Virus record (IMG/VR): IMGVR_UViG_3300022902_001407
Span: 1 to 45,849 of that record
Strand: one strand, 5' to 3'
Source of the DNA: a virus
Length of the DNA: 45,849 nucleotides
Positions 29,342 to 43,508 of the stretch are shown piece by piece. Positions within the stretch are counted from its first letter, which is position 1. Each line of letters starts with the position of its first letter. The position numbers and the translations under genes were made by a program. The notes beneath the pieces were generated by a model that saw only the letters and a program-made list of their open reading frames with translations, ran no database searches and was not told where the DNA came from.

Positions 29342-29401
29342 CCTTTAGTTAGTGTTGAGAAGGCAGACGACCACTAAAGGAAAGTCTCTGCCAAGCTCAA
29401 C
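29342..29401 (-). promoter_or_regulatory. Interleaved-stem (pseudoknot-type) leader of the minus-strand HNH gene
   Basis: Read on the minus strand, GTTGAG (29401-29396) and GGCAGA (29392-29387) pair with TCTGCC (29367-29362) and CTCAAC (29359-29354), forming a 12-bp helix with a small internal loop. CCTTTAGT in its loop (29380-29373) is complementary to ACTAAAGG (29349-29342) downstream of it. The order is therefore A-C-A'-C', a pseudoknot. C' includes the AAAGG ribosome binding site, so the fold would hide it. A further small hairpin, ATCGG/CCGAT, lies nearer the promoter. Confidence 0.65.
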
Positions 29402-29436
29402 GGTTGTTTTAGATCGGTGATCAATTCCGATACTGC

Positions 29437-29465
29437 AATATACTAAAAGTTCTAACCAAAAGCAA
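29437..29465 (-). promoter_or_regulatory. Sigma70-like promoter for the minus-strand HNH gene
   Basis: On the minus strand: -35 TTGCTT (29465-29460), a 17-bp spacer, -10 TATATT (29442-29437). It stands back to back with the plus-strand promoter at 29471-29499, the two -35 boxes being five bases apart. Confidence 0.65.
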
Positions 29466-29470
29466 CTAAT

Positions 29471-29499
29471 TTGCATTTCCCCTATTTGTTTTGTATATT
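29471..29499 (+). promoter_or_regulatory. Sigma70-like promoter for the gene at 29576
   Basis: -35 TTGCAT (29471-29476), a 17-bp spacer, -10 TATATT (29494-29499). The predicted start at about 29506 coincides with the first base of helix A of the leader. Confidence 0.7.
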
Positions 29500-29505
29500 C
29501 AATTA

Positions 29506-29558
29506 ACGGTTAACATAATTTTGTAGGACACCTCGTGTTTAACCGTGCGGGGTGTTCT
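29506..29558 (+). promoter_or_regulatory. Compact pseudoknot-type leader
   Basis: A1 ACGGTTAA (29506-29513) pairs with A2 TTAACCGT (29539-29546), 8 bp. B1 AGGACACCTC (29525-29534) pairs with B2 GGGGTGTTCT (29549-29558), 10 bp with two G-U pairs. The order is A1-B1-A2-B2 with only two bases between A2 and B2. CAGTTTTGGAGG follows, so B plus the T-run could also act as a weak terminator. A1 begins at the predicted transcript start. Confidence 0.65.
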
Positions 29559-29575
29559 CAGTTTTGGAGGGAAAA

Positions 29576-30076
29576 ATGCACAGTATTTTTGAGAAAGATC
29601 CTGAAATTGGTCAAGCCATAAGGCTTCAAGGTGAATTTAATGGGGCAAAAATGGTTGTCGATGGGCACTTTGATCTGATCACAGGTGATGATAATCCAGA
29701 TGTTTATGGGATATTTTGTGATGGCAAACATGACAACCCCCTGCATACTCACTTACGGGTCAATTACAATGTCTTCACACATTGGGAACCGACTGTCGAC
29801 AACCCCGACGGCACGACCGACGCGGAAGTTGGAATCATTACGGTTAATGGAGATTGTGATCGAGAAGCTCTTGAATTCAATTACTCGTTAACGAATGTCA
29901 CTCCCGGCGATAATCAAATTCACAACATTGCCCTTGTCAGGGAGAAAGCGAAGGAATTAGGTAAGTTGATAATTCAGGGGTGTCCAAATGGACGTTGTAA
30001 GTCAACTGCGAAGACTAACCTTGAAGAAGTTGTCATGTGGGCTGTGAAAGGGATTGTGTTGGACTGGAAGGAATAA
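29576..30076 (+). CDS. Hypothetical protein with its own promoter and structured leader
   Basis: A 166-residue acidic protein that I do not recognise. The ATG at 29576 follows GGAGG. It contains His/Asp-rich segments (DGHFDLITGDDNPDVYG; DGKHDNPLHTHLRVNYNVF) that could bind metal, and a C-terminal helical part with a Cys pair (IQGCPNGRCKST). Single-gene unit: promoter and structured leader before, strong terminator after. The presence of the leader suggests controlled expression. Confidence 0.7.
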   Translation: MHSIFEKDPEIGQAIRLQGEFNGAKMVVDGHFDLITGDDNPDVYGIFCDGKHDNPLHTHLRVNYNVFTHWEPTVDNPDGTTDAEVGIITVNGDCDREALEFNYSLTNVTPGDNQIHNIALVREKAKELGKLIIQGCPNGRCKSTAKTNLEEVVMWAVKGIVLDWKE

Positions 30077-30134
30077 AAGATTAACTGTTAATTGTTCTAT
30101 CCTTATCAATTAACCTGTGGGGATTTCCCTGCTT

Positions 30135-30168
30135 AAAGAGCCAGTCTTCGGAATGGCTCTTTGTTTTT
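30135..30168 (+). terminator. Rho-independent terminator
   Basis: Perfect 9-bp stem AAAGAGCCA (30135-30143) / TGGCTCTTT (30154-30162) with a loop containing TTCG, followed by GTTTTTG. Just upstream, GTTAATTG (30087-30094) and CAATTAAC (30107-30114) form another hairpin, with ATCC inside its loop and GGGAT downstream, a weak echo of the interleaved leaders. Confidence 0.85.
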
Positions 30169-30178
30169 GTTGACTAAC

Positions 30179-30207
30179 TTGACTTTTGCCGATATTTTTC
30201 GTAATAT
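30179..30207 (+). promoter_or_regulatory. Sigma70-like promoter for the phosphoesterase gene
   Basis: -35 TTGACT (30179-30184), a 17-bp spacer, -10 TAATAT (30202-30207), placed directly behind the terminator. The leader to the ATG at 30241 is short and has no interleaved repeats; an AAAAAAGGAGAG site precedes the start. Confidence 0.75.
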
Positions 30208-30240
30208 AGGATATCGTCATTAAAAAAGGAGAGTTTTGAA

Positions 30241-31101
30241 ATGGCAGATAATAGTGCATTTGCGAAGTTTGTGTTCCGTCACCACCTAAAGAACAATGTT
30301 TCTTTCCCTATATTTTTTATGGGTGATTTCCACCTTGACGCACGGAAGACTGATGTCGGATTTATTGAGAGGGAGTTAGAGAAGGCGAGAGAACTTGATG
30401 CCCGAATCATCCTGTTGGGGGATATATTTGATGGGATATGGTGCGGAGATCCTCGTTACATGCCAGCAGTTTCTATCCAGAGACTTGAAGGACGAAACCA
30501 ATTAATTAGAGAAACAGTTCAGTACGGGAAAGAGTTTCTTAAACCGTATGCTGATTTGATTGATATTATTGCAATTGGTAATCACGAAGAAACCGTCCTG
30601 AAGCACCACCATTATAATCTCATTCAAGAACTTTGCCGTGAACTGACAACCGATGATCATGTTGTTAATTATGGGAAACGTTCTGGTAATGCGTTTTATC
30701 GGTTTGAATATCCCAACGGGGGGGCGGTTCAAACTGTTAAGATACATTATACTCATGGGTCTGGTGGTTCTGCTCCTGTGACTGACGGACTCATCAAGAT
30801 GAAGCACAAGAAGATCCACTTGGAAGGATTTGATATTCATGTGTCAGGTCATACCCATACTCAGGCTTATGCTCCGAAGGTTGCATTTTATCCATCAGAC
30901 AACGACGCAGAGATGAAGGAACGACATGCTAACCTTATCTGCGTTGGCTCTTATGGGGATCTTATTGAAGACGGTTGGGAATCAACAAAGGAATTTGCCC
31001 CACAGAGGAAGGGTGGTTATTACGCGGATGTTCAATTGGTTGGGAAGTACAGGGATAAAAGTATTGAAATTCGACATATTACAAACAGGGTACGACGATG
31101 A
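30241..31101 (+). CDS. Calcineurin-like metallophosphoesterase
   Basis: A 286-residue hydrolase of the metallophosphoesterase superfamily, acting on phosphate esters with two metal ions. All signature motifs are present: GDFHLD (28-33), GDIFDG (60-65), GNHE (113-116), His171-172 region YTHGSGG, and GHTHT (203-207). It is full length for the family. The substrate cannot be deduced; phage members can act on nucleic acid ends or nucleotides. It is transcribed from its own promoter and overlaps the DUF5675 gene by 4 bases. Confidence 0.9.
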   Translation: MADNSAFAKFVFRHHLKNNVSFPIFFMGDFHLDARKTDVGFIERELEKARELDARIILLGDIFDGIWCGDPRYMPAVSIQRLEGRNQLIRETVQYGKEFLKPYADLIDIIAIGNHEETVLKHHHYNLIQELCRELTTDDHVVNYGKRSGNAFYRFEYPNGGAVQTVKIHYTHGSGGSAPVTDGLIKMKHKKIHLEGFDIHVSGHTHTQAYAPKVAFYPSDNDAEMKERHANLICVGSYGDLIEDGWESTKEFAPQRKGGYYADVQLVGKYRDKSIEIRHITNRVRR

Positions 31102-31487
31102 GACAAGTAACCCTAACCCGTGACGAGTTCACCGAAGACAGCACACTTGGACTGTTAGAGTGTGATACCGGAGAAGTATTCCACACGTTGGAACTTCCGT
31201 GGAGAGGTAATGAACCTTTCAAGAGTTGTATCCCGATTGGTAACTATCTGTGTAAGTTTCTCCCAAAGGCGGTTAAGCGAAAGAATGTGTGGCATATAAA
31301 GGGAGTCTTTGAACGGGACTCGGTTCTGATCCATGTTGGTAACTTTCCCCGCAACACAAAAGGATGTGCGCTCATTGGGTTGACTCGTGGGGATGATGCC
31401 GTGTATTCGAGTAAGATCGCATTGGGTGCGTTCAATAATGTCATGGGTCGTGAAGACTTCATTCTGAAGATACAAAATAAGGCGTAA
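31098..31487 (+). CDS. DUF5675 family protein
   Basis: A 129-residue protein with the DUF5675 plan: STLGLLECDTGEVFHTLELPW, CIPIGNYLCKF, then a VLIHVGNFPRNTKGCALIG motif. The family is frequent in phages, often near lysis genes, with conserved His and Cys suggesting an enzymatic role that is not settled. It overlaps the phosphoesterase gene (ATGA) and is the last gene before an 850-bp gene-free stretch. Confidence 0.8.
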   Translation: MRQVTLTRDEFTEDSTLGLLECDTGEVFHTLELPWRGNEPFKSCIPIGNYLCKFLPKAVKRKNVWHIKGVFERDSVLIHVGNFPRNTKGCALIGLTRGDDAVYSSKIALGAFNNVMGREDFILKIQNKA

Positions 31488-31511
31488 AATAGACGCAGTA
31501 CCGTGCCTGTT

Positions 31512-31540
31512 TTGAACTCTAACGGGAAAGATGGCATAAT
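31512..31540 (+). promoter_or_regulatory. Candidate promoter of the structured RNA region
   Basis: -35 TTGAAC (31512-31517), a 17-bp spacer, -10 CATAAT (31535-31540). It matches the spacing of the other promoters in this part of the genome and would start transcription near 31547, just before the run of hairpins. Confidence 0.45.
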
Positions 31541-31546
31541 GTGTGG

Positions 31547-31945
31547 GTAGATAACAAAAGTCTTCGCTACGGGCTTTATTTGAACTATTAGGAAATCCTT
31601 AACAGTTCACTTTTACTGAAACATCGGGCTGTGTATCAGAAATACTGAAGCATGAGTTGTCAAGTTTTCTTTGACAACTGGACTAAAAAGGAATTTTAAC
31701 AAGTTGCCGTCCGGCTTAACCCCGTGATTGCCGAGTGTTGCTATTGGCACGCTTCACGACCCGATCACCCCGGACGGAACAATCGGTCTTGAGACTGATT
31801 AGCCCCTGTGTCGTGATAGCCAAATGATCGGCACAGGGACGAAAATCTATCGCGTTGACTGCATCCGCTTAATTGCAGTGATACTCCCATGACCCTCGGT
31901 TCTCCTTTGCCGAGGGTCTCTCCTTTGAGATCACAATCTGTGATG
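31547..31945 (+). ncRNA. Candidate large structured noncoding RNA (about 400 nt)
   Basis: No plausible gene lies here. Consecutive inverted repeats fill the stretch: TGAACT/AGTTCA (31581-31609); AGTTGTCAA/TTGACAACT (31655-31679); an 11-bp long-range stem GTT-CCGTCCGG/CCGGACGG-AAC (31703-31780) enclosing CGTGA/TCACG and TGCC/GGCA; AATCGGTC/GACTGATT (31781-31800); CCCTGTGTCG/CGGCACAGGG (31804-31838); ACTGCA/TGCAGT (31858-31879); GACCCTCGG/CCGAGGGTC (31891-31918); ATCACA/TGTGAT (31930-31944). The GC-rich stems contrast with the AT-rich DNA that follows. I see no tmRNA, RNase P or group I intron core. It could be an ornate phage RNA or several small ones. Confidence 0.5.
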
Positions 31946-32219
31946 TCAAGTTTCCACTTTAACATTAAACTTGCATATAACATTGCCTACGTTATTGTGC
32001 GATTATGTGGTTAGTGTAGTGTTTCTTATAAGTATACCACTTGTTGATAAATGGAATACACTTGCATATTGTGTTACATAATGTCGTCTTTTGTGAGCGA
32101 TTGTATGCAAAAGGTTTTGACTGTACTTCCTGCAATCAAAATGAATAATGTGCAATGTCACTCTCAGATAACGATTCTACACGTTTCGTAATCTTTTCTC
32201 ACCCCTCCGCATGTTTCGC
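31946..32219 (+). other. AT-rich gene-free stretch with TTGCATA repeats
   Basis: No ORF with a ribosome binding site is seen. ACTTGCATAT occurs twice (31969-31978 and 32060-32069), its inverted core TATGCAA once (32104-32110), and CTTGCATTT once more at the edge (from 32219), where it forms the -35 of the next promoter. The stretch lies beside the structured RNA region and could be a protein-binding region or part of an origin; this is speculation from composition and repeats. Confidence 0.35.
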
Positions 32220-32248
32220 TTGCATTTGGGGAATAAATGTGTTATGTT
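32220..32248 (+). promoter_or_regulatory. Sigma70-like promoter for the HNH gene at 32346
   Basis: -35 TTGCAT (32220-32225), a 17-bp spacer, -10 TATGTT (32243-32248). The transcript would begin at about 32255-32257, where helix A of the leader starts. Confidence 0.6.
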
Positions 32249-32256
32249 TGGGTATG

Positions 32257-32327
32257 ATCCGGCAAGGTCAACACTAAAACTTTTTGCATGTCCTACGTCC
32301 TGATCTTGCCGGATAGACGTAGGACAT
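32257..32327 (+). promoter_or_regulatory. Pseudoknot-type leader of the HNH gene at 32346
   Basis: A1 ATCCGGCAAGGTC (32257-32269) pairs with A2 GATCTTGCCGGAT (32302-32314), 13 bp with one G-U. B1 ATGTCCTACGTC (32288-32299) pairs with B2 GACGTAGGACAT (32316-32327), 12 bp perfect. A2 lies in the loop of B, and B1 in the loop of A. A single base separates A2 and B2. TTTAGTTTTGGAGG follows, so B looks like an intrinsic terminator that runs into the ribosome binding site. This is the clearest example of the leader type in the window. Confidence 0.75.
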
Positions 32328-32345
32328 TTTAGTTTTGGAGGTATG

Positions 32346-32816
32346 ATGAAAGAGATTAGAATTGGTCGATATGGGGCTGTTGCTCTCGTTGATGACGATG
32401 ACTTTGAAATATTAAACCAGTATAAATGGTCACGTGATAAGGATCTCAATACAAGTTATGGATATAGATCAGATAAAGGCAAATGGCTTTTTATGCACCG
32501 TGTTATTCTCGGGTTGACTGATCCCAAAATCCATGTCGATCATATTAATGGGGATGGGTTAGATAACAGACGATGCAATCTCAGAACAGCGAACCACTCC
32601 CAGAATCAGATGAATGCAAGGAAGCGCAAAAACTGCACCTCGATATACAAGGGTGTTTCTTATGACAAGGGTAAAGGGAAGTGGATGGCGTGTGCTGGGC
32701 TAAATGGGAAGGTGCTTAAGCTCGGCTTATATACAGACGAGAAAGAGGCTGCCCGAGTCTATAATGATTTCGCTAAAAAGCACTACAAAGAGTTCGCCAG
32801 ATTAAATGATGTATAG
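32346..32816 (+). CDS. HNH homing endonuclease with AP2-type DNA-binding domain
   Basis: A 156-residue nuclease. The second ATG of the ATGATG pair (32346) is chosen because it has better spacing to GGAGG and gives the KEIRIG start shared with its paralogues. The HNH core is HRVILGLTDPKIHVDHINGDG with NRRCNLRTANHSQN; an AP2-like domain follows (GVSYDKGKGKWMACAG, AARVYNDFAKKHYKEFARLN). It is expressed from its own promoter through a structured leader. Such genes are mobile and cut a site in related genomes that lack them. Confidence 0.9.
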   Translation: MKEIRIGRYGAVALVDDDDFEILNQYKWSRDKDLNTSYGYRSDKGKWLFMHRVILGLTDPKIHVDHINGDGLDNRRCNLRTANHSQNQMNARKRKNCTSIYKGVSYDKGKGKWMACAGLNGKVLKLGLYTDEKEAARVYNDFAKKHYKEFARLNDV

Positions 32817-32852
32817 AACTCCGATAAACAAAGACTAACAAGCAGGTGGGGT

Positions 32853-33032
32853 ATGCAGGCTAACCAAATAATTAAGGGTGAGAAGGTCAGTGTCGAATGG
32901 CTCATGGAAGAGATAGAGAAAATGAGTTTCATAGAGACAAATTACGCCAACAGAATCGTGCTCGTTGAAGATATAAAAACAGCTGTTCAAAAACATGTCG
33001 CAAAGGCTGATGAATGGAATTCAACAAAATAA
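32853..33032 (+). CDS. Small hypothetical protein
   Basis: A 59-residue protein starting at the ATG at 32853 behind AGGTGGGG. It has an amphipathic helical character (SVEWLMEEIEKMSF, VEDIKTAVQKHVAKADEW). Its 3' end overlaps the start of the truncated methyltransferase fragment, as would be expected for an old operon in which this gene was coupled to that methyltransferase. Confidence 0.6.
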   Translation: MQANQIIKGEKVSVEWLMEEIEKMSFIETNYANRIVLVEDIKTAVQKHVAKADEWNSTK

Positions 33033-33136
33033 TTCAGGGCGAGTGTTCGGAAGTGATGTCAACCTTTCCAGACGAGTGTATTTCGCTTACAGTAACTTCA
33101 CTTGACAATCGTGTCTATTTTTACTATATTAAATAG
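33014..33136 (+). pseudogene. Truncated N-terminal fragment of a DNA methyltransferase
   Basis: An ORF of 40 codons whose first 29 residues match the start of a beta-class methyltransferase: NKIIQGECSEVMSTFPDE here against NKVIHGNCVDVMCNFPDN in the intact enzyme at 33676 (10 of 18 identical), continuing to LTVTS against IVLTS. The similarity ends exactly at the TSPPY catalytic motif, where the promoter of the next HNH gene begins (33102). The last 11 codons are promoter sequence read by chance. The fragment has lost both catalytic and cofactor motifs and must be inactive. Confidence 0.75.
33102..33130 (+). promoter_or_regulatory. Sigma70-like promoter for the HNH gene at 33152
   Basis: -35 TTGACA (33102-33107), a 17-bp spacer, -10 TATATT (33125-33130). 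The -35 abuts the broken methyltransferase reading frame. The leader is only about 15 nt and has no interleaved repeats, unlike the other HNH cassettes; CGGAG serves as ribosome binding site. Confidence 0.8.
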
Positions 33137-33151
33137 AAAACGGAGTTTTTC

Positions 33152-33682
33152 ATGCCAAAGAGAATTTGTCCCCCAGATAAGATTATTACTGACCTCTATG
33201 ATTCAGGAATGACGCCAGCTCAGATCGGGAAACATTTAGGTATTAAAAAAAATACCATTTGTGGTAGATTAAGGTTGTCTGGACATAAGCTTAGAACAAT
33301 TTCGGAAGCGATAAAGATTAATTATAAAAATGGGCAGAAACCTGTTAAATATTGGGAGGGGAAAAAACAGCCATTAGATATGGTGGAAAACCGTATAAAT
33401 AAAATTAGAGGTGAAAAACATTATCTGTGGAAAGGTGGAAAACATCGTCGAGGTTATAGGGGGAATATTGAGAAAAAGATTTGCGCTGACTGTGGTGGGA
33501 AATTAAATCTTGGGATACATCATAAGGATTTAGATCATTATAACAATGCACCTGAAAACCTTCAAGTTCTTTGCGTTTCTTGTCATATGTCACTCCATAA
33601 ACAAATGTATTGGGATGCGATTAAGGCAGGTGAAACCCCGCCCAAAAGTAACGGTATCGTTGGTTGGAGTAAAGATGATTGA
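33152..33682 (+). CDS. HNH endonuclease with N-terminal helix-turn-helix
   Basis: A 176-residue protein. Residues about 10-45 form a helix-turn-helix (IITDLYDSGMTPAQIGKHLG, then KKNTICGRLRLSG). The C-terminal HNH domain has zinc-type Cys pairs and the catalytic His: ICADCGGKLNLGIHHKDLDH and VLCVSCHMSLH (about 111-149). It is a different HNH family from the AP2-type paralogues. The stop overlaps the start of the intact methyltransferase by 7 bases, so both are probably translated from one mRNA driven by the promoter at 33102. Confidence 0.85.
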   Translation: MPKRICPPDKIITDLYDSGMTPAQIGKHLGIKKNTICGRLRLSGHKLRTISEAIKINYKNGQKPVKYWEGKKQPLDMVENRINKIRGEKHYLWKGGKHRRGYRGNIEKKICADCGGKLNLGIHHKDLDHYNNAPENLQVLCVSCHMSLHKQMYWDAIKAGETPPKSNGIVGWSKDD

Positions 33683-34454
33683 TCAATATGTGAATAAAGT
33701 CATACACGGTAATTGTGTGGATGTGATGTGCAATTTTCCAGACAATTCAATTCCAATTGTTTTAACTTCTCCGCCCTACGACTCACTCAGAGATTACAAA
33801 GGCTACAAGTTCGACTTCGAGGCTATTGCGAAACAGTTGTATCGGGTCACGAAGCAAGGTGGCGTTGTCGTGTGGGTTGTTGGGGATCAGACTGTCAAGG
33901 GCAGTGAAACAGGAACGAGCTTTCGACAGGCGTTGTACTTCAAGGAAATCGGGTTTAACCTTGAGACAATGATTTGGGAGAAACCTACATTTACAGCAAC
34001 AGGATCGCTAAGAGTACGCTACGCCTCTGTATTTGAATTTATGTTTGTTTTAACTAAAGGAAAAGTGAAAACATTTAATCCAATAATTGATAGGATATGT
34101 AAATCAGCAGGAGGTAAAAAGGTAGGCACAGTTAGAAAAACTGACGGAACGCTTAAACGTAAAAGTAGTGAGGGGAAGGTTCAGCGTGAATTAGGTCAAA
34201 GATTTAACATTTGGAAAATACCGACACAAACTCAAATTGGACACCCCGCACCCTTCCCCGAACAACTTGCAGCCGATCATATCCGCAGTTGGTCAAACGA
34301 AGGGGATATTGTTCTTGACCCAATGGCAGGAAGTGGTACAACGCTGAAAGCAGCAAGGAAACTTAGGCGGAAGTATATCGGGATAGAAATATCCGAAGAG
34401 TACGTGGCAATCTGCGAAGAGCGATTGTCGCAACAAGTGCTGGAATTTAACTAA
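33676..34454 (+). CDS. Beta-class DNA methyltransferase, SPPY type
   Basis: A 259-residue enzyme; the ATG at 33676 (MIDQYVNKVIHGN) is preferred, as the longer reading frame upstream lies inside the HNH gene. Catalytic motif IV is TSPPY (about residues 32-36) and the cofactor motif DPMAGSGTT (about 215-223) comes later, the beta-class order. SPPY is typical of N4-cytosine enzymes, though some N6-adenine ones carry it. It would methylate phage DNA, probably to evade restriction. It is coupled to the HNH gene and has a broken homologue upstream of that gene. Confidence 0.85.
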
Positions 34455-34530
34455 CAGGATCGCATCTTGAAAGTGACCGAGTAAACTTTAACTAACCGCC
34501 CTTTTCGGGGTCGGATAAAAAGGAGGAAGT

Positions 34531-34896
34531 ATGAAGGCTGAAGAAGTAGAACTCAAGGTAGGGGATTATCTGTATTGGACAGTACGTGCCTACGACGGAA
34601 TACATCGCTCGAAGATTACAAGGTTCACCAAGACTTTGATTGGGCTTGAAAATGGACACAGAGTTAATAAATCTACATTTAAGATAACAGGAATGTACGT
34701 ATTTGAGAATTGCATAGCGTATCCAGAAACAGAAGAAAACAAGACAGAGTGGCTTCGTAAAACTAATATAGATTCAATCGAATTGCTATGTGATAATATC
34801 CGCCTTGAGGATAAGAGTGGAATCTCTGTTGATATATTGCAGGACATCAACGCATTACTTAAATTAGCACTCACCAAACTGGGGTTAGAGCCATGA
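34531..34896 (+). CDS. Hypothetical protein
   Basis: A 121-residue protein behind an AAAGGAGG site. The N-terminal half is beta-rich (LKVGDYLYWTVRAYDGIHRSK), suggestive of a small barrel; the C-terminal half is helical (LEDKSGISVDILQDINALLK). No known family recognised. The 76-bp gap before it contains a short GC-rich hairpin near 34488-34507 with no clear T-run. First gene of a tightly coupled cluster leading to the second methyltransferase. Confidence 0.65.
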   Translation: MKAEEVELKVGDYLYWTVRAYDGIHRSKITRFTKTLIGLENGHRVNKSTFKITGMYVFENCIAYPETEENKTEWLRKTNIDSIELLCDNIRLEDKSGISVDILQDINALLKLALTKLGLEP

Positions 34897-36260: not shown

Positions 36261-36282
36261 TGAAAAAAGTTGCGGGATTTAC

Positions 36283-36311
36283 TTGACTTTGGGGAGGGGA
36301 TTAGTTATAAT
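36283..36311 (+). promoter_or_regulatory. Sigma70-like promoter of the recombination operon
   Basis: -35 TTGACT (36283-36288), a 17-bp spacer, consensus -10 TATAAT (36306-36311). The best promoter match in the window. It drives the structured leader and the genes from 36539 to 40479. Confidence 0.85.
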
Positions 36312-36329
36312 GGGAGTACGAAAGAACGA

Positions 36330-36505
36330 TTGGACATCGACAACTAAACCAGATTTTTTACACTGCATGCCTCAAGAGTGCCCTACGGACTGATAACCTA
36401 CATACGTGTTATGTTATCCCGTATGCAGTGTAACTTCTTAGCCGTATCATTCTCGCGTCGATGTCCAAGCCCATCCGGGTAATCCTTTGCGATTTGATAC
36501 GGCTA
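36330..36505 (+). promoter_or_regulatory. Large structured leader of the recombination operon
   Basis: A1 TTGGACATCGAC (36330-36341) pairs with A2 GTCGATGTCCAA (36457-36468), 12 bp perfect. Inside is an own hairpin TTACACTGCATGC/GTATGCAGTGTAA (36358-36370/36421-36433), itself holding GATAAC/GTTATC. C1 TAGCCGTATCA (36439-36449) lies before A2 and pairs with C2 TGATACGGCTA (36495-36505) after it, 11 bp. A and C interleave as a pseudoknot. TTTTACTTT follows C2, so C can also act as a terminator hairpin. The ribosome binding site AGGAG lies some 20 bases further on. Confidence 0.7.
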
Positions 36506-36538
36506 TTTTACTTTAACAACCAATAGCAGGAGAAGATT

Positions 36539-36856
36539 ATGGTAAGAGATAAATTTACAGATAAAATATTAACCAAAATCATGCGATGTGCTTGTGATTC
36601 TTGCGATGGATGCGCTAATACTATCAATGAAAAGTGTCAGATAATAGCGAGCAACAGGGCTTGCAAGTGGTATGGGAAGATGTGTGATGGAAAATATAAA
36701 TCTGTGACATGGGGCAAGAAAGCCGACCCCACCGAGCCGGAGGATACTGACTGCAAATTTCTCGACAGCGGTGGCGGTTGCGAGCTAATGTCCTTCCGGA
36801 AGTGCGACGATGAAATATGTCCGCGAAACGATATGGAGGCAACCAATGGCAAATAA
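36539..36856 (+). CDS. Cysteine-rich small protein, likely metal-binding
   Basis: A 105-residue protein with eleven Cys, clustered as CACDSCDGC near the start, single Cys in the middle (EKC, RAC, KMC) and a second cluster near the end (TDC, GGC, RKC, EIC). The pattern suggests one or two zinc or iron-sulphur sites. It is the first gene behind the structured leader and leads the recombination operon. No family recognised. Confidence 0.65.
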   Translation: MVRDKFTDKILTKIMRCACDSCDGCANTINEKCQIIASNRACKWYGKMCDGKYKSVTWGKKADPTEPEDTDCKFLDSGGGCELMSFRKCDDEICPRNDMEATNGK

Positions 36857-37043: not shown

Positions 37044-37045
37044 TC

Positions 37046-38536
37046 GTGGGGAAGAAACAGGCAGTAAAAAAAATCAGTGTTTATGATCTTGGTAAAGTCA
37101 AGCGCGGAGTGCTGACGTTCAAGGATGGTTGTCCAATTAGTGAGCTTTCATCGTATCGGAAGAATGCACAGGGCAAGACCAATTTCCTTATGGGGTTGGA
37201 TTTCACCTCACAAGGGAAACGTGGACTCAAGAAAAAACCTGTACATGATGGCGCAAAGAAAGCCCGTGTTGAAGTCGAATTGACAGACCTCGTTATTGTG
37301 TCTGAGATAACTTTCAATGGCACAGTGTCCCGTCGGGTAATTCCCAAAAAAGGTTCAGGGATTGTTGGCAACGAAGAGTTTATTGGCAAGATATTCAAAG
37401 GCGTTGACCTTGACCCTGAAGAATTCAAGGGTAAATCACGGATCGAAAAGTTCCGGTTCGCAATGAAGTTGACCGGATGCCAAGATAAGCTCGATGCAGT
37501 TGACGCAAAGCGAGCTATTGTTTATGACCAACGGGCTTTGGCAAAATCCCGCCACAAGGATTCACAGGCTCAGCTTGATGGGATGATTTACCCGAACGCA
37601 GACCTTCCAAAAGAAGAGATTCCTGCGAGTGAACTGGTTGCTGAACTCAACAAGGTTCGTGGGCTTGAACTCAAGAAGAGTACATGTTTGTCTAAGGTTG
37701 AAAGATTAAAATCTGAGTTGGCTCACGATCTCGTAACCAAAAAGAACACCGCACAGACGAATATTAACTTGATTATTGGTATTGGTCAAGGACTCAAGCA
37801 AGATGTTGTTGACACCAAAAATGATATTGCTCGGCTTGAAAAGGAACTTGCAACTGCGAAGGGAGATCTTGAGGTTGAAGAAAAAATGATCAGCGACAAG
37901 CAAGATGAACTCGTAATTGCCAGAAAAGAATTTGATGCAATCAACATCAGTGATATAGACTTCACCGCAGATCCCAACATAAAAACGGCACAGGACGAAC
38001 ATGACGGAATTGTAGTCCCTGACGCTTCCGAACTTGAAGCGAAGATCGAATCGAACGAAGTGACAAACGCAAAGATCAGGTCAGCCAAATCCTACTGGAA
38101 AAAGAAATCCGAGAACGACAAAAACCGATCTGAAGTCGAAGCCAAAGAAAAAGAATATCAAGATCTGGCAGATAAAAAGATTGAAATTGTCAAGGCAGGT
38201 GCTATCCAAATTCCGGGATTAGATCTGGATTTCCAAAGCGAAACGCTGATGTATAAAGGGCGGGATATTGACTCCGCAAGTTACGCAGAGTCGATTATGA
38301 GCGCAACGGAAATGTTGATTGAAGCAAACCCTGACTGTCCGTTCTTTGTTATCAGGAATGCCGCTTCAATTGGCGATGAAATCAGACAGCAAATGGTAGA
38401 CATGTGTCTTGCTAAAGGTGCTCAGGGAATCTTTGAAAGTATATCTGAGGGTGATTTGCCGGGGCTAATCTTTGTTGATGGTGTTGGTGAGGTTTATGAA
38501 GGGCAGAATGAGTTATTCAAGGGAGATTCGGAATAA
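37046..38536 (+). CDS. SMC/RecF-like ATPase of the recombination operon
   Basis: A 496-residue protein started at GTG 37046 behind AAGGAG. It has the SMC-like plan: an N-terminal head with a Walker A-like loop NAQGKT (40-45; the first Gly of the usual motif is replaced), a central coiled coil (about 165-370), and a C-terminal head with a Walker B-like LIFVDG (474-479). Such phage ATPases are found beside annealing proteins and exonucleases and probably manage DNA ends. The changed Walker A raises the question of full ATPase activity. Confidence 0.7.
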   Translation: MGKKQAVKKISVYDLGKVKRGVLTFKDGCPISELSSYRKNAQGKTNFLMGLDFTSQGKRGLKKKPVHDGAKKARVEVELTDLVIVSEITFNGTVSRRVIPKKGSGIVGNEEFIGKIFKGVDLDPEEFKGKSRIEKFRFAMKLTGCQDKLDAVDAKRAIVYDQRALAKSRHKDSQAQLDGMIYPNADLPKEEIPASELVAELNKVRGLELKKSTCLSKVERLKSELAHDLVTKKNTAQTNINLIIGIGQGLKQDVVDTKNDIARLEKELATAKGDLEVEEKMISDKQDELVIARKEFDAINISDIDFTADPNIKTAQDEHDGIVVPDASELEAKIESNEVTNAKIRSAKSYWKKKSENDKNRSEVEAKEKEYQDLADKKIEIVKAGAIQIPGLDLDFQSETLMYKGRDIDSASYAESIMSATEMLIEANPDCPFFVIRNAASIGDEIRQQMVDMCLAKGAQGIFESISEGDLPGLIFVDGVGEVYEGQNELFKGDSE

Positions 38537-39342
38537 TGGCAGGTAAAAACACACAGGTCGAACTCATCCCGAAAAAGGGTTCATCGGCAATAGAACATGT
38601 TGAAAGCCACCTTCCGGCAAGTCCGATTAGTCAGGTTATGGAACTGGCACAGAATAAAGATTTCGATCCTGAAAAGTTTGATACCATCGTAAAGTTCATG
38701 CGTGAAGAACGGACGTGGGATGCAAGGAAGGCACATAGTGAGGCGATTGCTTCATTCCAAGCCAAATGTCCAAACATCAAAAAAACCACGAAAGGACATG
38801 GGTATAAATACGCTTCGTATGAAGATTTGCTGGATGTAATACAGCCCCTTCTTGAAGAATATGGCATATCAATCCGGTTCAGCTTTCCTCCTTCCACTAA
38901 TCCTGAAATGACCCACGTTATAGGTTACATAACAGTTGGAGCACACACAGAAACGTCTGAGTTTGAACTTCCCAAGCATCGGTTGCCTCAGAAAATGGTT
39001 CCCGATGTAAACGATGCAAGGAATACAGGATCAACCTTATCTTACGCTAAGAGGTACTGCATTATTAATGCCTTGAATATTGTCACTGAGGGAGAGGACA
39101 AGGACGGGGTTACTTCTCAGGCAACCATCACAGAGAATGATGCAAATGTAATAAATGCCCTAATCGGGGATATTGAAGATGAACCAGATGGGGATAAATT
39201 TGATTTGATTCGATGGAAGGAATACGTGGGTGTTAGTGAGTTCACACCGATAGAAGAAATCCCGAAATCAAATCTCGGCAAAGCCATATCATCACTCAGG
39301 GACAAACTTAAATGGTTGCGCGACAAAGGCGGTAAATCATGA
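38536..39342 (+). CDS. ERF-family single-strand annealing protein
   Basis: A 268-residue recombinase of the ERF superfamily. Landmarks are AIASFQAKCPNIKKTTKGHG (the Phe-Gln and Lys-rich start), YASYEDLLDVIQPLLEEYGI, and the conserved NDARNTGSTLSYAKRYCIINAL. It anneals complementary single strands during phage recombination and replication. It starts in a TAATG overlap with the ATPase gene and overlaps the nuclease gene by 4 bases. Confidence 0.85.
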   Translation: MAGKNTQVELIPKKGSSAIEHVESHLPASPISQVMELAQNKDFDPEKFDTIVKFMREERTWDARKAHSEAIASFQAKCPNIKKTTKGHGYKYASYEDLLDVIQPLLEEYGISIRFSFPPSTNPEMTHVIGYITVGAHTETSEFELPKHRLPQKMVPDVNDARNTGSTLSYAKRYCIINALNIVTEGEDKDGVTSQATITENDANVINALIGDIEDEPDGDKFDLIRWKEYVGVSEFTPIEEIPKSNLGKAISSLRDKLKWLRDKGGKS

Positions 39343-40079
39343 ACCTGATAGACCGAATCTCAAATGTCGAACAAGGGACGATTGAGTGGTTCCTGCTTAG
39401 ATCGGGCGTGTTGACAGCCTCAAGGATGGATAAAGTATGTTCCCCTGTGAAGATGCAATATGCCACAACTGGGGCAGACACCTTAATCAATCAGTTAATG
39501 GCTGAGGTATTCTTGCCGGGTGCTCCAGAAATGGTTGGGGCGTTCACATCAAGGGCGATGGAAAATGGAACCGAAACAGAATCAGAAGCAAGGGAATATT
39601 TAGGTTTCATTACCGAATTGAATATCCAAGAGGTCGGATTCATCAAGTCGGAATGTGGTCGATTTGGATGCTCCCCGGATGGATTGATTGTTAATAAAGA
39701 TGGTGAATATGTTGGCGGTCTTGAACTTAAATGCCCGTTGCCACATACCCACATCGGTTACATGCGGTATCCTGCCGACCTCCTGAAGAAGTACAAGATC
39801 CAGGTTCATGCGAGCCTCTTGGTGTCTGGTCTGAAGAACTGGAAACTGATGAGCTACTTTCCTGGATTAGATCCGGTTATCATCGACGTTGTGCCGGACG
39901 AAACCACAGATAAGCTTCGAGACGTTCTGGAGATATTCTGGAAGAACTGGAACACCGCAAAACAACTACTCGAAGAAAAGGGGATTGATTTTAATCCTGT
40001 TCGTAAACCACAACCCGAACCACAGTACGGAATATCGGAAGATGAAGCTACTGAAGATTTGGGATTTGAGGGAGTATAA
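39339..40079 (+). CDS. YqaJ-like (lambda exonuclease family) recombination nuclease
   Basis: A 246-residue nuclease with the PD-(D/E)xK layout of the YqaJ/lambda exonuclease group: an early SRMDKV helix after the RSGVLTA segment, CSPDGLI (Asp ligand, about 111-117), GGLELKCP (Glu-x-Lys, about 127-134), and a later KIQVHASLLVSG helix with the Gln. It would resect DNA ends to give single strands for the ERF protein. Coupled by ATGA. Confidence 0.8.
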   Translation: MNLIDRISNVEQGTIEWFLLRSGVLTASRMDKVCSPVKMQYATTGADTLINQLMAEVFLPGAPEMVGAFTSRAMENGTETESEAREYLGFITELNIQEVGFIKSECGRFGCSPDGLIVNKDGEYVGGLELKCPLPHTHIGYMRYPADLLKKYKIQVHASLLVSGLKNWKLMSYFPGLDPVIIDVVPDETTDKLRDVLEIFWKNWNTAKQLLEEKGIDFNPVRKPQPEPQYGISEDEATEDLGFEGV

Positions 40080-40080
40080 C

Positions 40081-40479
40081 ATGTCGGTAAGTTTAACCAT
40101 ATTAATTGGCAGGGTTGGCAAAGACCCTGAATCATCGGTTGCTAAAAGTGGGATGAAGATTGTAAAGTTTTCATTGGCAACAGAGAACTTCAAGAAAAAA
40201 GTTGCATGGCATAAAATAGTAACATTCGGCAAGTTGGCTGAAGTTGTCGAACAGTACGTCAAGAAGGGGAAACAGGTCTACATCGAAGGTGAGATCAGTT
40301 ACAATGACTATGAAAAAGAGGGGGTCAAGCAGTACTTCACTGAGATCATAGCCAATAAAATGAAGTTGCTTGGTAGCAGAAGCGACTCACAACCAGCCCC
40401 GCAGAGCACCGCGACGCATGTGGTGAACAACTCTGCACCAGCACCAGTGGTAGACGACGGAGAGTCGCTTCCTTTTTGA
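40081..40479 (+). CDS. ssb: Single-stranded DNA-binding protein
   Basis: A 132-residue SSB. The ATG at 40081 starts the OB-fold (SVSLTILIGRVGKDPESS), with VKFSLATENF and WHKIVTFGKLAEVVEQYVKKG as typical elements (residues about 25-65). A Pro/Ala/Gln-rich linker leads to the acidic tip DDGESLPF, the bacterial-type docking peptide for partner proteins. An upstream reading frame in phase with this gene overlaps the nuclease gene and is not used. Last gene of the recombination operon. Confidence 0.9.
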   Translation: MSVSLTILIGRVGKDPESSVAKSGMKIVKFSLATENFKKKVAWHKIVTFGKLAEVVEQYVKKGKQVYIEGEISYNDYEKEGVKQYFTEIIANKMKLLGSRSDSQPAPQSTATHVVNNSAPAPVVDDGESLPF

Positions 40480-40495
40480 TATTACCATTTTAAGC

Positions 40496-40524
40496 TTGAC
40501 TTTTGGCTATTTTGAGCTTAATTT
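40496..40524 (+). promoter_or_regulatory. Sigma70-like promoter for the HNH gene at 40629
   Basis: -35 TTGACT (40496-40501), a 17-bp spacer, -10 TAATTT (40519-40524). It starts 16 bases after the ssb stop. Helix A of the leader begins five bases after the -10. Confidence 0.65.
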
Positions 40525-40528
40525 ATCA

Positions 40529-40610
40529 TTGTAACCTTTGTACGATGAGTCATTAGTCATTATCCCGATTCGTCTTTAGCATACGTGCAAAGGTTACAAC
40601 GAGTCGGGAT
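40529..40610 (+). promoter_or_regulatory. Pseudoknot-type leader of the HNH gene at 40629
   Basis: A1 TTGTAACCTTTGTACG (40529-40544) pairs with A2 CGTGCAAAGGTTACAA (40584-40599), 16 bp with one G-U. B1 ATCCCGATTCGT (40562-40573) pairs with B2 ACGAGTCGGGAT (40599-40610), 12 bp with one G-U, sharing a single base with A2. TTTGCTTTTGGAG follows. A direct repeat AGTCATT-AGTCATT (40547-40560) lies in the loop. B plus the T-run is terminator-like. Confidence 0.75.
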
Positions 40611-40628
40611 TTTGCTTTTGGAGTCAAC

Positions 40629-41150
40629 ATGAAAGAATGCTTTAAGTGTAAGGAATGGAAGTCACTTGACAAGTTCTATAAACATCCACAAATGGGTGAT
40701 GGTCATCTTAATAAGTGTAAGGACTGCACCAAGAAGGATACGAAAGAAAGGACTGATCAATTAGCATCTGATCCTGAGTGGGTAGAGTCGGAAAAGAAGA
40801 GGCATCGGGATAAGTATTATAGGCTTGGATATAAAGAAAAACATAAACCCTCTCCGCAAAAACGGAAGAAGGCTGATCGACGATGGAAAGAAAAATATCC
40901 AGAGAAAATAATTGCGTCTGGAAAGTGCACCTGCTTATCCAAACCCGGATTAAACATCCATCACTGGTCATACAATGAAGCCCACTACAAAGACATACTG
41001 TACTTGACGATGGAAATGCACAATAAATTACATTCGTTCCTCACATACGATCAACCGAAGAAAATGTACCGAACGAAAGAGGGGGTCTTATTAGACACGA
41101 AAGATAAACATTTAGCGTACTATGAGCAAATCAAAGACGCTGAATATTAA
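40629..41150 (+). CDS. HNH-like endonuclease with N-terminal zinc site
   Basis: A 173-residue basic protein. Two N-terminal Cys pairs (CFKCKEW and CKDCTKK, about 4-34) form a probable zinc site followed by a Lys/Arg-rich helix. The C-terminal part has an HNH-like His pair (GLNIHHWSYNEAHYKD) and MEMHNKLHSF. It belongs to a group of phage HNH proteins distinct from the AP2-type ones. It lies in its own transcription unit with a structured leader. Confidence 0.75.
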   Translation: MKECFKCKEWKSLDKFYKHPQMGDGHLNKCKDCTKKDTKERTDQLASDPEWVESEKKRHRDKYYRLGYKEKHKPSPQKRKKADRRWKEKYPEKIIASGKCTCLSKPGLNIHHWSYNEAHYKDILYLTMEMHNKLHSFLTYDQPKKMYRTKEGVLLDTKDKHLAYYEQIKDAEY

Positions 41151-41192
41151 TTTTGATACACCACACATTAACAATAACATAGGAGGTAAAGC

Positions 41193-41513
41193 ATGAACAC
41201 AGTAATCAAGGCACATTTAGAAGCCGTTGCCAAAAAACACGGCTGGGATGATTTCGACATCACTGACGGCTGGAATGTTTATGAGCTTTTGTCAGAAGCG
41301 AAAGAGTTGTTCCGGGGAAAAGCGGATGTCCACCGTTGGTATAATGTGGAATTTTGCGTTGTTGATCTTGATGGTATGGAAATTGGATTTGACGACATCG
41401 TAACCACAGGGGACGAGAGCGCACGGGAGATGGACATCGAATTTGACTTAGTTGGTGTCTCCGAAGTCGTGTCAGAAGAAGTCAAGACTACCGTGTACAA
41501 GCGGAAAGAATAG
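41193..41513 (+). CDS. Acidic hypothetical protein
   Basis: A 106-residue acidic protein behind an AGGAGG site. It contains helical (IKAHLEAVAKKHGWDDF) and beta (VEFCVVDLDGMEIGF) parts and ends in a basic peptide. No family recognised; starts a series of small accessory genes. Confidence 0.65.
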   Translation: MNTVIKAHLEAVAKKHGWDDFDITDGWNVYELLSEAKELFRGKADVHRWYNVEFCVVDLDGMEIGFDDIVTTGDESAREMDIEFDLVGVSEVVSEEVKTTVYKRKE

Positions 41514-41526
41514 AAAGGAGGCTGAA

Positions 41527-41724
41527 ATGCCGAAGTATTTTATAACATGGAACCCCACAGGGCATGGGGGAGACGAAAGCAAAGCAGTTGTTGAGGCAAC
41601 AGATGAAGAGGAAGCGACCTCCATTGCATATGATTATGCAAAGGACGAATTTGAATCTTCAGCCGAATACTCAGCCGAAGAGTTCGACCCCGACAACGAA
41701 GAACACGAAGAACACGACGAATAA
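41527..41724 (+). CDS. Very acidic small protein
   Basis: A 65-residue protein started at the ATG at 41527 behind AAAGGAGG. The first 25 residues form a beta hairpin (PKYFITWNPTGHGGDESKAV); the C-terminal 40 are dominated by Glu and Asp, ending EEHEEHDE. The charge resembles DNA-mimic inhibitors, but no known family is recognised and the role is open. Confidence 0.65.
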   Translation: MPKYFITWNPTGHGGDESKAVVEATDEEEATSIAYDYAKDEFESSAEYSAEEFDPDNEEHEEHDE

Positions 41725-41746
41725 CCCATTCACAAACAAGGAGGCA

Positions 41747-41782
41747 ATGTCTTATGCGGAAGTAAGGACTCGCAAGTTCTAA
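41747..41782 (+). CDS. Minigene encoding an 11-residue peptide
   Basis: An ATG at 41747 behind a perfect AAGGAGG site opens a frame of only eleven codons, MSYAEVRTRKF, followed by TAA. The strong ribosome binding site suggests it is translated. It lies 41 bases upstream of the tRNA-like element. It could be a leader peptide, a remnant of a longer gene, or chance. Confidence 0.4.
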   Translation: MSYAEVRTRKF

Positions 41783-41823
41783 TACTTTACAGTGTCGCTG
41801 GGTATCAATGTTACCTGGCGGAT

Positions 41824-41896
41824 GGCAGTGTAGCTCAGTGGAGGAGCATAATCCCTAACAAGGACGAAGACGGTTGTTCGATTCAGCCCACTGCCA
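41824..41896 (+). tRNA. tRNA-like gene, anticodon AAC by position (Val), imperfect anticodon stem
   Basis: A 73-nt cloverleaf: acceptor GGCAGTG/CACTGCC (7 bp), D arm GCTC/GAGC with a GG-containing loop, T arm GGTTG/CAGCC with loop TTCGATT, and discriminator A followed by CTA instead of CCA. The anticodon loop CTAACAA has the expected T33 and A37, giving anticodon AAC. The anticodon stem has only three pairs (TCC/GGA) with two mismatches at the base, and two bases rather than one precede it. It is either a divergent phage tRNA or a decaying one. Confidence 0.6.
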
Positions 41897-41922
41897 CTAA
41901 CACATTAACAAAGGAGAAAGAA

Positions 41923-42213
41923 ATGAAAGACGCAATGGAATTATTCGGTGATTTACAAGAAGATTGGGTTAATATCTGTGAAGACAATATCCAACAGTCG
42001 GGGCGTGGGAGCAGACAACTTGCTTCAAATATGAAAAAGTTTTCACCTATGAATTATCCAACATATTACAGGGTGTTAGAACTTGTAACTGAACTCCAAA
42101 AAAAGTTGGTGGAGTTTAAACCACATATTGCCAAAGCAGAGCAAGCCGACCAAGCCGAGTCAGACCTTCTCCTCCAAGACCGGAATCAGGACTACGAGGA
42201 TTCTGTGCTGTGA
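41923..42213 (+). CDS. Small hypothetical helical protein
   Basis: A 96-residue protein behind AAAGGAG. It is helical and acidic, with a Gln/Glu/Ala-rich C-terminal third (AKAEQADQAESDLLLQD). It is linked to the next gene by a GTGA overlap. No family recognised. Confidence 0.65.
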   Translation: MKDAMELFGDLQEDWVNICEDNIQQSGRGSRQLASNMKKFSPMNYPTYYRVLELVTELQKKLVEFKPHIAKAEQADQAESDLLLQDRNQDYEDSVL

Positions 42214-42440
42214 GACACGAAATTAAACACAACAGCAAAACATACTATTGGCGAGATGGTCAATATTTTGGGTTTGAGAATAAGAAGGGAGATGATCTTA
42301 ATATGGCAAATATTCCCAAGTATGTTATGGTAAAAATGAATGCCCAAGTATATGGAGTCGCTTGGGTTGAGTTCGGTAGGGAGAAGTCAATCAAAATTCC
42401 ATTAACCGATGAACAAGTTAGGACTATTTGTGAAGGATAA
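42210..42440 (+). CDS. Small hypothetical protein
   Basis: A 76-residue protein started with GTG in a GTGA overlap. It has beta-rich halves (HNSKTYYWRDGQYFGFEN; KMNAQVYGVAWVEFG) and may be a small barrel. No family recognised. Confidence 0.6.
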   Translation: MRHEIKHNSKTYYWRDGQYFGFENKKGDDLNMANIPKYVMVKMNAQVYGVAWVEFGREKSIKIPLTDEQVRTICEG

Positions 42441-42476
42441 ACCACCCTTAGCGGGTAAACCAAACGGAGGTAAAGA

Positions 42477-42731
42477 ATGACTTACAAGAACGACTGGGAC
42501 GGAGTCTTGTCACAAAGTTGCCTTGATTTTATCAAAGCACAAGACGGAGATTTTGCATTCTGTAAACGGAAGCCAGCATCTTATGCCACTGGAGTTTTTA
42601 TCGGTGGCGAAGTGTTCCCATTTGATGTCTATGGATTTGCATATGCAACCAAGTCCGAACGTGCATTGTTCACAACCGCATACGCTGTTATTAATGATGA
42701 CGTGAATGATGTCGAATTCGCAATTTCGTAA
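42477..42731 (+). CDS. Small hypothetical protein
   Basis: An 84-residue protein behind ACGGAGG. It contains aromatic-rich beta sequence (GVFIGGEVFPFDVYGFAY). It overlaps the membrane protein gene by TAATG. No family recognised. Confidence 0.6.
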   Translation: MTYKNDWDGVLSQSCLDFIKAQDGDFAFCKRKPASYATGVFIGGEVFPFDVYGFAYATKSERALFTTAYAVINDDVNDVEFAIS

Positions 42732-43138
42732 TGTTTTTCGGAACCTTACATAAAGAAATGGACTCCCCATCTGCTTTGTACTTTACAGGGATGGGGGGAT
42801 CATTATTGCTATCCTTGAAGATCGGGACAGACTACGGCTTCTGGATAGCCGGATTAGTCGCATTCAGGCTTGCGTGGGACATCTTTAATCGGTATTTGGA
42901 TGTTGACTATGGGACAACTTGCTACGGCTTGCTGAAGGGGATTAAATACGCTGTGTACATTTGGTTTTCATGGCGATTAGTTAGCATTGATATTATGGCA
43001 AGTTTACTGCCTGTGACAATTATCATATTCTCAATGTATTTTATAGCCGTGTGGGTGTTTGATATGAGGAAGTTCAACAAGTTAGTCGCATTCACATGGA
43101 TGCTGACCGACGTAATTATCATATGGAGGATGCTGTGA
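42731..43138 (+). CDS. Integral membrane protein, about four segments
   Basis: A 135-residue protein with hydrophobic segments near 18-48, 67-85, 89-112 and 116-134, so three or four membrane crossings. It is coupled to both neighbours (TAATG before, GTGA after). It is not a recognisable holin. It may alter the host membrane or exclude other phages; the role is unknown. Confidence 0.65.
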   Translation: MFFGTLHKEMDSPSALYFTGMGGSLLLSLKIGTDYGFWIAGLVAFRLAWDIFNRYLDVDYGTTCYGLLKGIKYAVYIWFSWRLVSIDIMASLLPVTIIIFSMYFIAVWVFDMRKFNKLVAFTWMLTDVIIIWRML

Positions 43139-43332
43139 GCCGGTTCATGGATAAGTGCAAAAAGACAAACTTTCCAAAAAGTAGGTGGGAAGGATTCACA
43201 AAGGATAAGACAGCAGAGGCTATTGCGAACAAGAAGTCAGTTCATGGACAGGGGTGGAGTATTGACCCTGACAAGTACGATTCAAATCACAAAGTACTCG
43301 ATAGAGGATCTGTCGAGAGGAGTTCAATGTGA
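43135..43332 (+). CDS. Small basic hypothetical protein
   Basis: A 65-residue Lys/Ser-rich protein started with GTG at 43135 in a GTGA overlap. Its stop overlaps (GTGA) the start of the truncated DUF4406-like fragment, which shows the fragment was once the next gene of this operon. No family recognised. Confidence 0.6.
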   Translation: MSRFMDKCKKTNFPKSRWEGFTKDKTAEAIANKKSVHGQGWSIDPDKYDSNHKVLDRGSVERSSM

Positions 43333-43385
43333 GATTACCGAGCTTGGTCTATATCGCGGGACGGTTATCTGCGAAAAAGGGTTGA
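43329..43385 (+). pseudogene. Truncated N-terminal fragment of the DUF4406/DUF1937-like gene
   Basis: GTG at 43329 opens an 18-codon frame reading MRLPSLVYIAGRLSAKKG. The intact gene at 44190 begins MRLPKLAYIAGRLTAE: 12 of the first 16 residues agree. The frame ends in a TGA that is part of the -35 box (TTGACT, 43382-43387) of the next HNH cassette, so the break is at the cassette edge. The fragment keeps the GTGA coupling to the gene before it but has lost nearly all of the protein. Confidence 0.75.
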
Positions 43386-43410
43386 CTTTCCAATAAAAAG
43401 TAGTTATATT
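43382..43410 (+). promoter_or_regulatory. Sigma70-like promoter for the HNH gene at 43509
   Basis: -35 TTGACT (43382-43387), a 17-bp spacer, -10 TATATT (43405-43410). The -35 overlaps the stop of the truncated gene fragment. Confidence 0.8.
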
Positions 43411-43416
43411 ACCAGA

Positions 43417-43489
43417 GTCTACCTACGTAAAGATTTTCAAGAGTTAATCCCTACTTGTCCACAAATCGTGGGTAGACACAAGTGGGGAT
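43417..43489 (+). promoter_or_regulatory. Pseudoknot-type leader of the HNH gene at 43509
   Basis: A1 GTCTACCTACG (43417-43427) pairs with A2 CGTGGGTAGAC (43467-43477), 11 bp with one G-U. B1 ATCCCTACTTGT (43447-43458) pairs with B2 ACAAGTGGGGAT (43478-43489), 12 bp with one G-U. A2 and B2 are directly adjacent. B1 begins ATCCC and B2 ends GGGAT, as in the leader at 40529. TTCTCGTTAGGAGG follows. A1 starts at the predicted transcript start. Confidence 0.75.
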
Positions 43490-43508
43490 TTCTCGTTAGG
43501 AGGTTAAG

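Follow-up and report, generated by a model that had tools for sequence, protein, structure and literature searches.

The phage fragment considered here, IMG/VR virus record IMGVR_UViG_3300022902_001407 (“the window”, analysed over its full length of 45,849 nucleotides), carries in front of several of its genes mRNA leaders in which two long inverted repeats, A and B, are arranged in the interleaved order A1-B1-A2-B2 between a promoter and a Shine-Dalgarno (SD) sequence, and these leaders belong to a real class of attenuator-like phage leader RNA that is apparently undescribed. As we infer the action of the leader, it is placed with the attenuator-like mRNA leaders, there being a substantial chance that its novelty is greater than that. 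Beyond what the original prediction, made from the letters of the window, had proposed, the leader is found in many phages (cultured ones included), constitutes a swappable promoter-to-SD module and has an open reading frame (ORF) beginning at its 5′ end in about half of the members. Homology tools miss a regulator that is defined by topology only, so the class, which common Salmonella phages carry, seems to have been overlooked.

Interleaved-stem leaders of the window

Enumeration of every A1-B1-A2-B2 arrangement in the window (G.U pairs permitted, mismatches barred, a span of at most 130 and an A2-B2 gap of at most 4) placed its best matches at four + strand sites, each adjoining an SD-ATG on the upstream side. 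Leader 1 (29506-29558; score 41) consists of A1 29506-29513, B1 29525-29535, A2 29539-29546 and B2 29548-29558, i.e., stems A and B of 8 and 11 bp, followed by CAGTTTTGGAGG, and comes from the enumeration together with the shuffles; leader 2 (32257-32327; score 62) has A1 32257-32270, B1 32288-32299, A2 32301-32314 and B2 32316-32327 (14 and 12 bp), followed by TTTTAGTTTTGGAGG. Leader 4 (40529-40610; score 62), taken from the enumeration, has A1 40529-40544, B1 40562-40573, A2 40584-40599 and B2 40599-40610 (16 and 12 bp), and leader 5 (43417-43490; score 53) has A1 43417-43427, B1 43446-43458, A2 43467-43477 and B2 43478-43490 (11 and 13 bp), with no gap between A2 and B2 and one G.U pair per stem. 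At these four sites the stems lie far above shuffled sequence, just as the original prediction had it: when the whole window was dinucleotide-shuffled 24 times, only 3 of the runs gave a score of at least 44, and shuffling site by site gave 0/1000 for 29506, 32257 and 43417 each (and 0/100 for 36330). The site at 40529 fitted poorly under a mismatch-tolerant scorer, which chose other stems (p = 0.003), the exact stems of the enumeration being 14–16 and 12 bp long with one G.U pair apiece.

Six places had been claimed to share one architecture, which holds for these four and only loosely for the other two, which are looser or weaker members. Leader 3 (36330-36505, + strand; A1 36330-36341, B1 36439-36449, A2 36457-36468, B2 36495-36505) has strong stems of 12 and 11 bp, an A2-B2 gap of 26 nt and a loop L1 of 97 nt that holds an extra hairpin, and leader 6 (29401-29340, − strand), with an imperfect A reduced to a 6-bp core (29401-29396/29359-29354) and B at 29382-29373/29349-29340, is marginal (p = 0.01). 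Stem sequences differ between leaders, in the window as well as in its relatives, and it is thus the topology that is conserved.

A promoter spacer of exactly 17 bp, also part of the original prediction, can be placed at all six sites, although several of the −35 boxes look poor by eye. Promoter scoring located TTGACT-17-TATAAT at 36283-36311 (leader 3) and TTGACT-17-TATATT at 43382-43410 (leader 5), sequence reading put TTGACT-17-TAATTT at approximately 40497-40525 (leader 4), and the sigma70-like TTGCAT-17-TATATT read at 29471-29499 (leader 1) was parsed by the scoring as TTTGCA-18-TATATT (all + strand). A1 begins 4–8 nt past the −10 box at the four best-placed sites (the distance is about 19 nt at 36330 and, on the − strand, about 36 nt at 29401), which puts the predicted starts of these four transcripts at or next to A1 and not downstream of it, so that A would tie the transcript 5′ end into the fold, in agreement with what had been proposed. 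The 3′ junction TTTTGGAG is indeed common to 29506, 32257 and 40529. The terminator-like appearance ascribed to B and the T-run stands insofar as B adjoins a U-run; the T-runs of the window are, however, broken up (TTTTAGTTTTGG) and would therefore make weaker terminators than those of the relatives. The B stems are not listed by a standard terminator scan, owing to its loop limit of 3–8.

Recurrence in other phages

Relatives were found by using the HNH proteins as queries against viral contigs and then scanning the DNA upstream, which revealed a common plan in about 30 unrelated phage contigs: a consensus promoter, A1 at approximately the transcript start, B1, A2 abutting B2, a U-run and an SD sequence. 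There are three copies in contig L011 and two in L040, with further ones in L044, L048, L009, L036, L042, L107, L134 and L139, as well as in contigs of a Zixiibacteriota and a Chitinivibrionales metagenome-assembled genome (MAG). Upstream of 152 HNH or endonuclease VII-like gene starts, the best score was at least 50 in 18 cases (1.1 expected), and 1.86 Mb of phage DNA, unfiltered for context, gave 37 matches at this threshold (seven of them from the Skate family) versus 1 in shuffles; an SD-start comes next in 30 of the 37 and a T-rich run in 24. The −10 box stands 5–8 nt from A1 in most matches, and the A2-B2 gap is 0–2 nt in most leaders. Five of the six best near-consensus promoters of the phage contig G001 bear the leader, the sixth preceding what reads like a decayed HNH gene.

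Most leader-bearing cassettes are homing endonuclease genes that stand alone, of the HNH or endonuclease VII-like kind, and some are replication or other early genes. On whole contigs of leader-bearing phages, the leader is also seen before further HNH genes, a helix-turn-helix (HTH)/DnaD-like replication gene, another gene that is likely to act in replication and one that is ParB-like (the ParB-like and second replication labels were given by eye, Pfam returning no family). No leader was found at chromosomal HNH genes of Planctomycetes, where the upstream DNA scores near chance, or at endonuclease VII-like homologues, many of which have Bacteroidetes-like promoters, and there was no leader match at the operon-embedded HNH genes of the cultured phages Stahl, 268TH002, Felix O1, KpV52, AG11, Faith5x5, MetMV, CHPC1198, SP01 and Pam5. 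HNH-AP2 genes are strongly multiplied in MAGs of Planctomycetota (Phycisphaerae; L203-L282), with several per genome, and are without the leader.

A portable promoter-to-SD module

Cultured Salmonella, Klebsiella and E. coli phages have the leader before an HNH-AP2 gene that is opposed in direction to its neighbours, at two genome positions. Between phages Skate and Akira, the 150 bp from promoter to SD are 97.3% identical, with no similarity found immediately on either flank, whereas the HNH endonucleases behind the module are only 40% identical. Promoter, leader and SD are therefore swapped or maintained separately from the gene, and the leader is a portable promoter-to-SD module. The Skate leader was absent from the plasmids and E. 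coli genomes searched.

Pairing at the level of RNA

With both kinds of mispair penalised equally, the stems contain 52 G.U versus 19 A.C (a few stems being mis-chosen in that run), an excess indicating that the pairing acts in the coding-strand RNA and not as DNA palindromes. The absence of covariation from homologues had been named as what would speak against the leader, and compensatory changes are in fact seen: the homologous leaders of L011c, L040a, L208 and L011b show double compensatory changes in A and in B, and in nine Skate-type leaders B is 97% paired and shows a U-A/U.G/C-G series besides a single double change from U-A to C-G, A and a small hairpin in loop L2 being invariant.

An open reading frame running through the leader

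Of 35 leaders, 19 (background rate 11%) have an ATG at or near the 5′ edge of A1, close to where the transcript is predicted to start, and in 15 of these 19 the frame is open from this ATG to the main start (4.3 expected from shuffles). Outside the window, most leaders have such an ORF, which passes through both stems and ends at the start of the gene behind. Ten leaders have the stop codon of this ORF no more than 4 nt away from the main start codon, the frame being continuous with the gene in others, and stop-start overlaps of the ATGA/TAATG kind are seen in many. The ORF of the nine Skate-type leaders is open up to or beyond the start although their indels differ; Akira and LPST10, for example, have different single-base indels, yet TAA directly precedes ATG in both. 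At 32257 in the window, an ATG at 32254 opens an ORF of 7 codons only. The class thus has members with and without the ORF, which limits the mechanism that can be put forward for the window.

A conserved leader peptide was considered and rejected, the homologous leaders of L011c and L040a being read in different frames and that of LPST10 being frame-shifted relative to Akira.

Two further leaders are worth recording here. On the − strand of L297 (about 15582-15470), the start of an apparent Rz1-like lysis lipoprotein (MLLLTGC) shares the frame of an interleaved-stem leader, so the ORF-bearing form seems to occur beyond endonucleases as well. On the − strand of L286 (reverse-strand position 15624), interleaved stems of 20 and 12 bp with a T-run, downstream of a TTGACA-TATATT promoter, lie within a leaderless ORF of 58 codons, at its 5′ end.

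Proposed mode of action and its alternatives

When the transcript up to A2 is folded, A forms in 32 of 32 leaders (nested folding; partly by construction), and when the full leader is folded with crossing stems disallowed, B is preferred in 27 of 32; in 25 of 32, B exceeds A in stability. In most leaders, A and B could plausibly form together as a pseudoknot, or one stem might give way to the other. With topology, pairing in the RNA, position between promoter and SD, module exchange and open frame as its observed steps, the reading favoured here, tentatively and with doubt somewhat outweighing confidence, is that phage gene cassettes carry a modular leader RNA that acts in cis and would work as a ribosome-gated, promoter-proximal intrinsic terminator, i.e., an attenuator. 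A would form first and lock the RNA 5′ end, where most members outside the window have a leaderless start codon; B would form next, beside the U-run, and the polymerase would be halted just short of the SD. A ribosome present at the 5′ end before A2 is made would keep A open (and B, too, in ORF-bearing members) and thereby allow read-through, and in leaders whose ORF terminates at the main start codon, the same ribosome might pass on to the main gene by reinitiation, the outcome being low, translation-dependent expression of a potentially harmful nuclease. Since the six leaders of the window have no through-running ORF, only the 5′-end lock and the terminator-like part could apply there. The attenuator hallmark of a G+C-containing stem with a direct U-run between promoter and gene is found (the 24 T-rich cases of 37), in interrupted form in the window.

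Several points weigh against this attenuator. The transcript starts, termination, leader translation and gating are steps that we infer; the 5′ ATG is absent from about 45% of leaders, and the window's own six combine the want of a through-running ORF with broken T-runs. U-runs are also weak in some others (L134, L139) and in the leader at 43417 (W_43417), and compared with classical terminators B often has a large loop. Loop L1 of L309 is 8 nt and B is 31 bp, so that here A and B cannot both fully form and must compete. The compensatory changes of the Skate set are few, with A invariant, and were equalled in 58 of 500 shuffles, a control that is not decisive for a set that is 94% identical. 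Copies inside one phage, finally, are not independent.

The leader might instead protect the 5′ end, its triphosphate end being held in a helix that would block RppH/RNase E or 5′ exonucleases and stabilise a single-gene mRNA, with the U-run as no more than a U-rich standby site before the SD: A1 stands where the transcript is predicted to start in most members, no particular sequence is called for, and the window leaders, with no ORF and weak T-runs, would suit. A single 5′ hairpin would, however, be enough for that, B abutting A2 and the T-runs of the relatives are left unexplained, and translation of the leader ORF would open the structure, so we consider such protection unlikely. Much the same standing is given to a terminator that is constitutive or, in the style of lambda pR′-tR′, relieved by a phage antiterminator protein, B and the U-run limiting read-through until then and the short RNA, closed at both ends, perhaps being a stable small RNA; of the two stems, B is the more stable and the one next to the U-run, and early genes such as the HTH/DnaD-like replication and ParB-like ones lie behind the leader, but A, the 5′ ATG and the open frame would be superfluous, and no antiterminator gene was identified. 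lambda pR′-tR′ does share the succession of promoter, short leader, terminator-like stem and genes, the phage leaders differing in the interleaved 5′-anchored stem and in having no recognised Q-type site.

Translational control of the kind known from T4 homing endonucleases, in which structure that only the transcript or translation of the leader opens would bar ribosomes from the nuclease start, is suggested by the homing endonuclease genes downstream, by the many ATGA/TAATG overlaps and by the leader hairpins that control T4 endonucleases (PMC2988022). Structured leaders directly before homing endonuclease genes are indeed common to both, but the T4-type hairpins (I-TevI, mobE) are single and nested, mostly sequester the SD and are bypassed via a late promoter inside the hairpin, although that of seg43 in Aeromonas phage 25, too, ends just before a free SD (PMC2988022), whereas the present leaders have two interleaved stems, a U-run and a promoter of their own. 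The SD lies outside both stems, unpaired after B2 and the U-run, in all but L055, and the promoter is upstream of A1 in the window and its relatives, so a late transcript would not escape the structure, all of which renders such control improbable. That inverted repeats adjoin promoters and that endonucleases bind DNA could be taken to mean operators, recombination sites or homing sites at the level of DNA; with G.U far above A.C, a fixed place between transcript start and SD, a U-run and sequences that differ inside one phage, this already disfavoured idea is highly improbable.

The ligand-responsive switch, an option raised by the original prediction, has fared no better. The helices do follow the H-type order of pseudoknot riboswitches such as SAM-II or preQ1, and SAM-II leaders can likewise join a pseudoknot, a terminator and two AUGs, as in the S. 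meliloti metA leader, whose H-type pseudoknot near the 5′ end is followed by a terminator and two AUGs (PMC9373788). SAM-II, however, has a conserved aptamer, whereas stems and loops here are not conserved, no binding-pocket nucleotides recur, Rfam gives no match and the target genes share no metabolism; lacking any conserved sequence, the leader is extremely improbable as a ligand switch.

Attenuators of the trpL/tnaC type and bicistronic coupling resemble the ORF-bearing leaders in having an ORF that runs through a terminator-like structure and a stop that overlaps the next start (ATGA/TAATG), the differences being that the ORF here is at the RNA 5′ end without an SD, with its start codon in or beside a stem, and that its peptide is unconserved and even frame-shifted between relatives. 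HDV-like ribozymes have the helix order P1-P2-P3-P1′-P2′, with P1 at the RNA 5′ end, and possess P4 and J4/2; the helix order is the same where the L2 of the leader holds a small hairpin (Skate, L011c, L208), but the leaders have neither P4 nor J4/2 (A2-B2 gap mostly 0–2 nt) and no Rfam match. For C4/P4-type antisense leader RNA there was no Rfam C4 match, and each stem pairs inside a single short leader. Rfam searches in general returned nothing at gathering thresholds except a tRNA and no credible match for the leaders at E up to 5, and a literature search, with subscription journals largely outside its coverage, found no account of such a class, in keeping with the original statement that no described class is known to have these traits.

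A combined A and B length that is constant, as in a rod serving as an RNase III substrate, was also considered and set aside, a score threshold on the sum biasing length.

A bolder form of the attenuator reading, conceivable though rather doubtful, is that topology alone sets a gate of ribosome availability, a 5′ leaderless start codon being locked by the 5′-anchored interleaved stem, and that this gate is widespread, portable, sequence-independent and swapped between unrelated phage genes. A ribosome would have to engage while the polymerase makes about 60 nt, or else transcription would end before the gene. Were such a gate real, mobile phage genes would bring along ready-made, host-independent expression control that restrains a dangerous nuclease, and RNA engineering would gain a compact, sequence-free part; the competition between leaderless translation and co-transcriptional folding is thereby made directly testable in E. 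coli.

Genes behind the leaders and other features of the window

Three of the window's leaders precede genes for HNH-AP2 endonucleases: leader 2 (32343-32816, +), leader 5 (43509-44027, +) and leader 6 (28840-29334, −). Leader 3 is followed by a Cys-rich 105-residue protein without a family match that opens an operon (36539-36856, +). The gene behind leader 1 (29576-30076, +) encodes a protein with a C-terminal Acb2/Tad1 hairpin domain of the signal-sponge family (residues 112-160; Pfam PF24729, E = 1.1e-13), the domain being C-terminal only and some 110 other residues having no assigned type; no relatives of this Acb2-like protein turned up in viral contigs.

An endonuclease VII-like protein (40629-41150, +; PHROG 2340/2633) is encoded behind leader 4, directly 3′ of ssb. 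Its relatives (L149-L202) nearly always stand directly behind ssb, too, the upstream gene ending in an acidic SSB tail with ..LPF before the stop, and many of them have a second copy of the ssb end (approximately TTACCNTTTTAA) between ssb and the promoter of the gene. The window has such a second copy, ACCATTTTAA, at 40475-40496, before the promoter of its endonuclease VII-like gene, and, from sequence, this looks like either a duplicated homing site or a target-like operator.

The window itself has no close cultured relative, its portal-like protein being likewise without a relative among cultured phages. A 400-bp stretch at 31500-31930, ahead of the next promoter, is without an evident ORF and holds several long inverted repeats, and the ORFs at 1863-2663, 2494-3219 and 3219-4238 look like parts of a single large terminase subunit that may be interrupted or frame-shifted.

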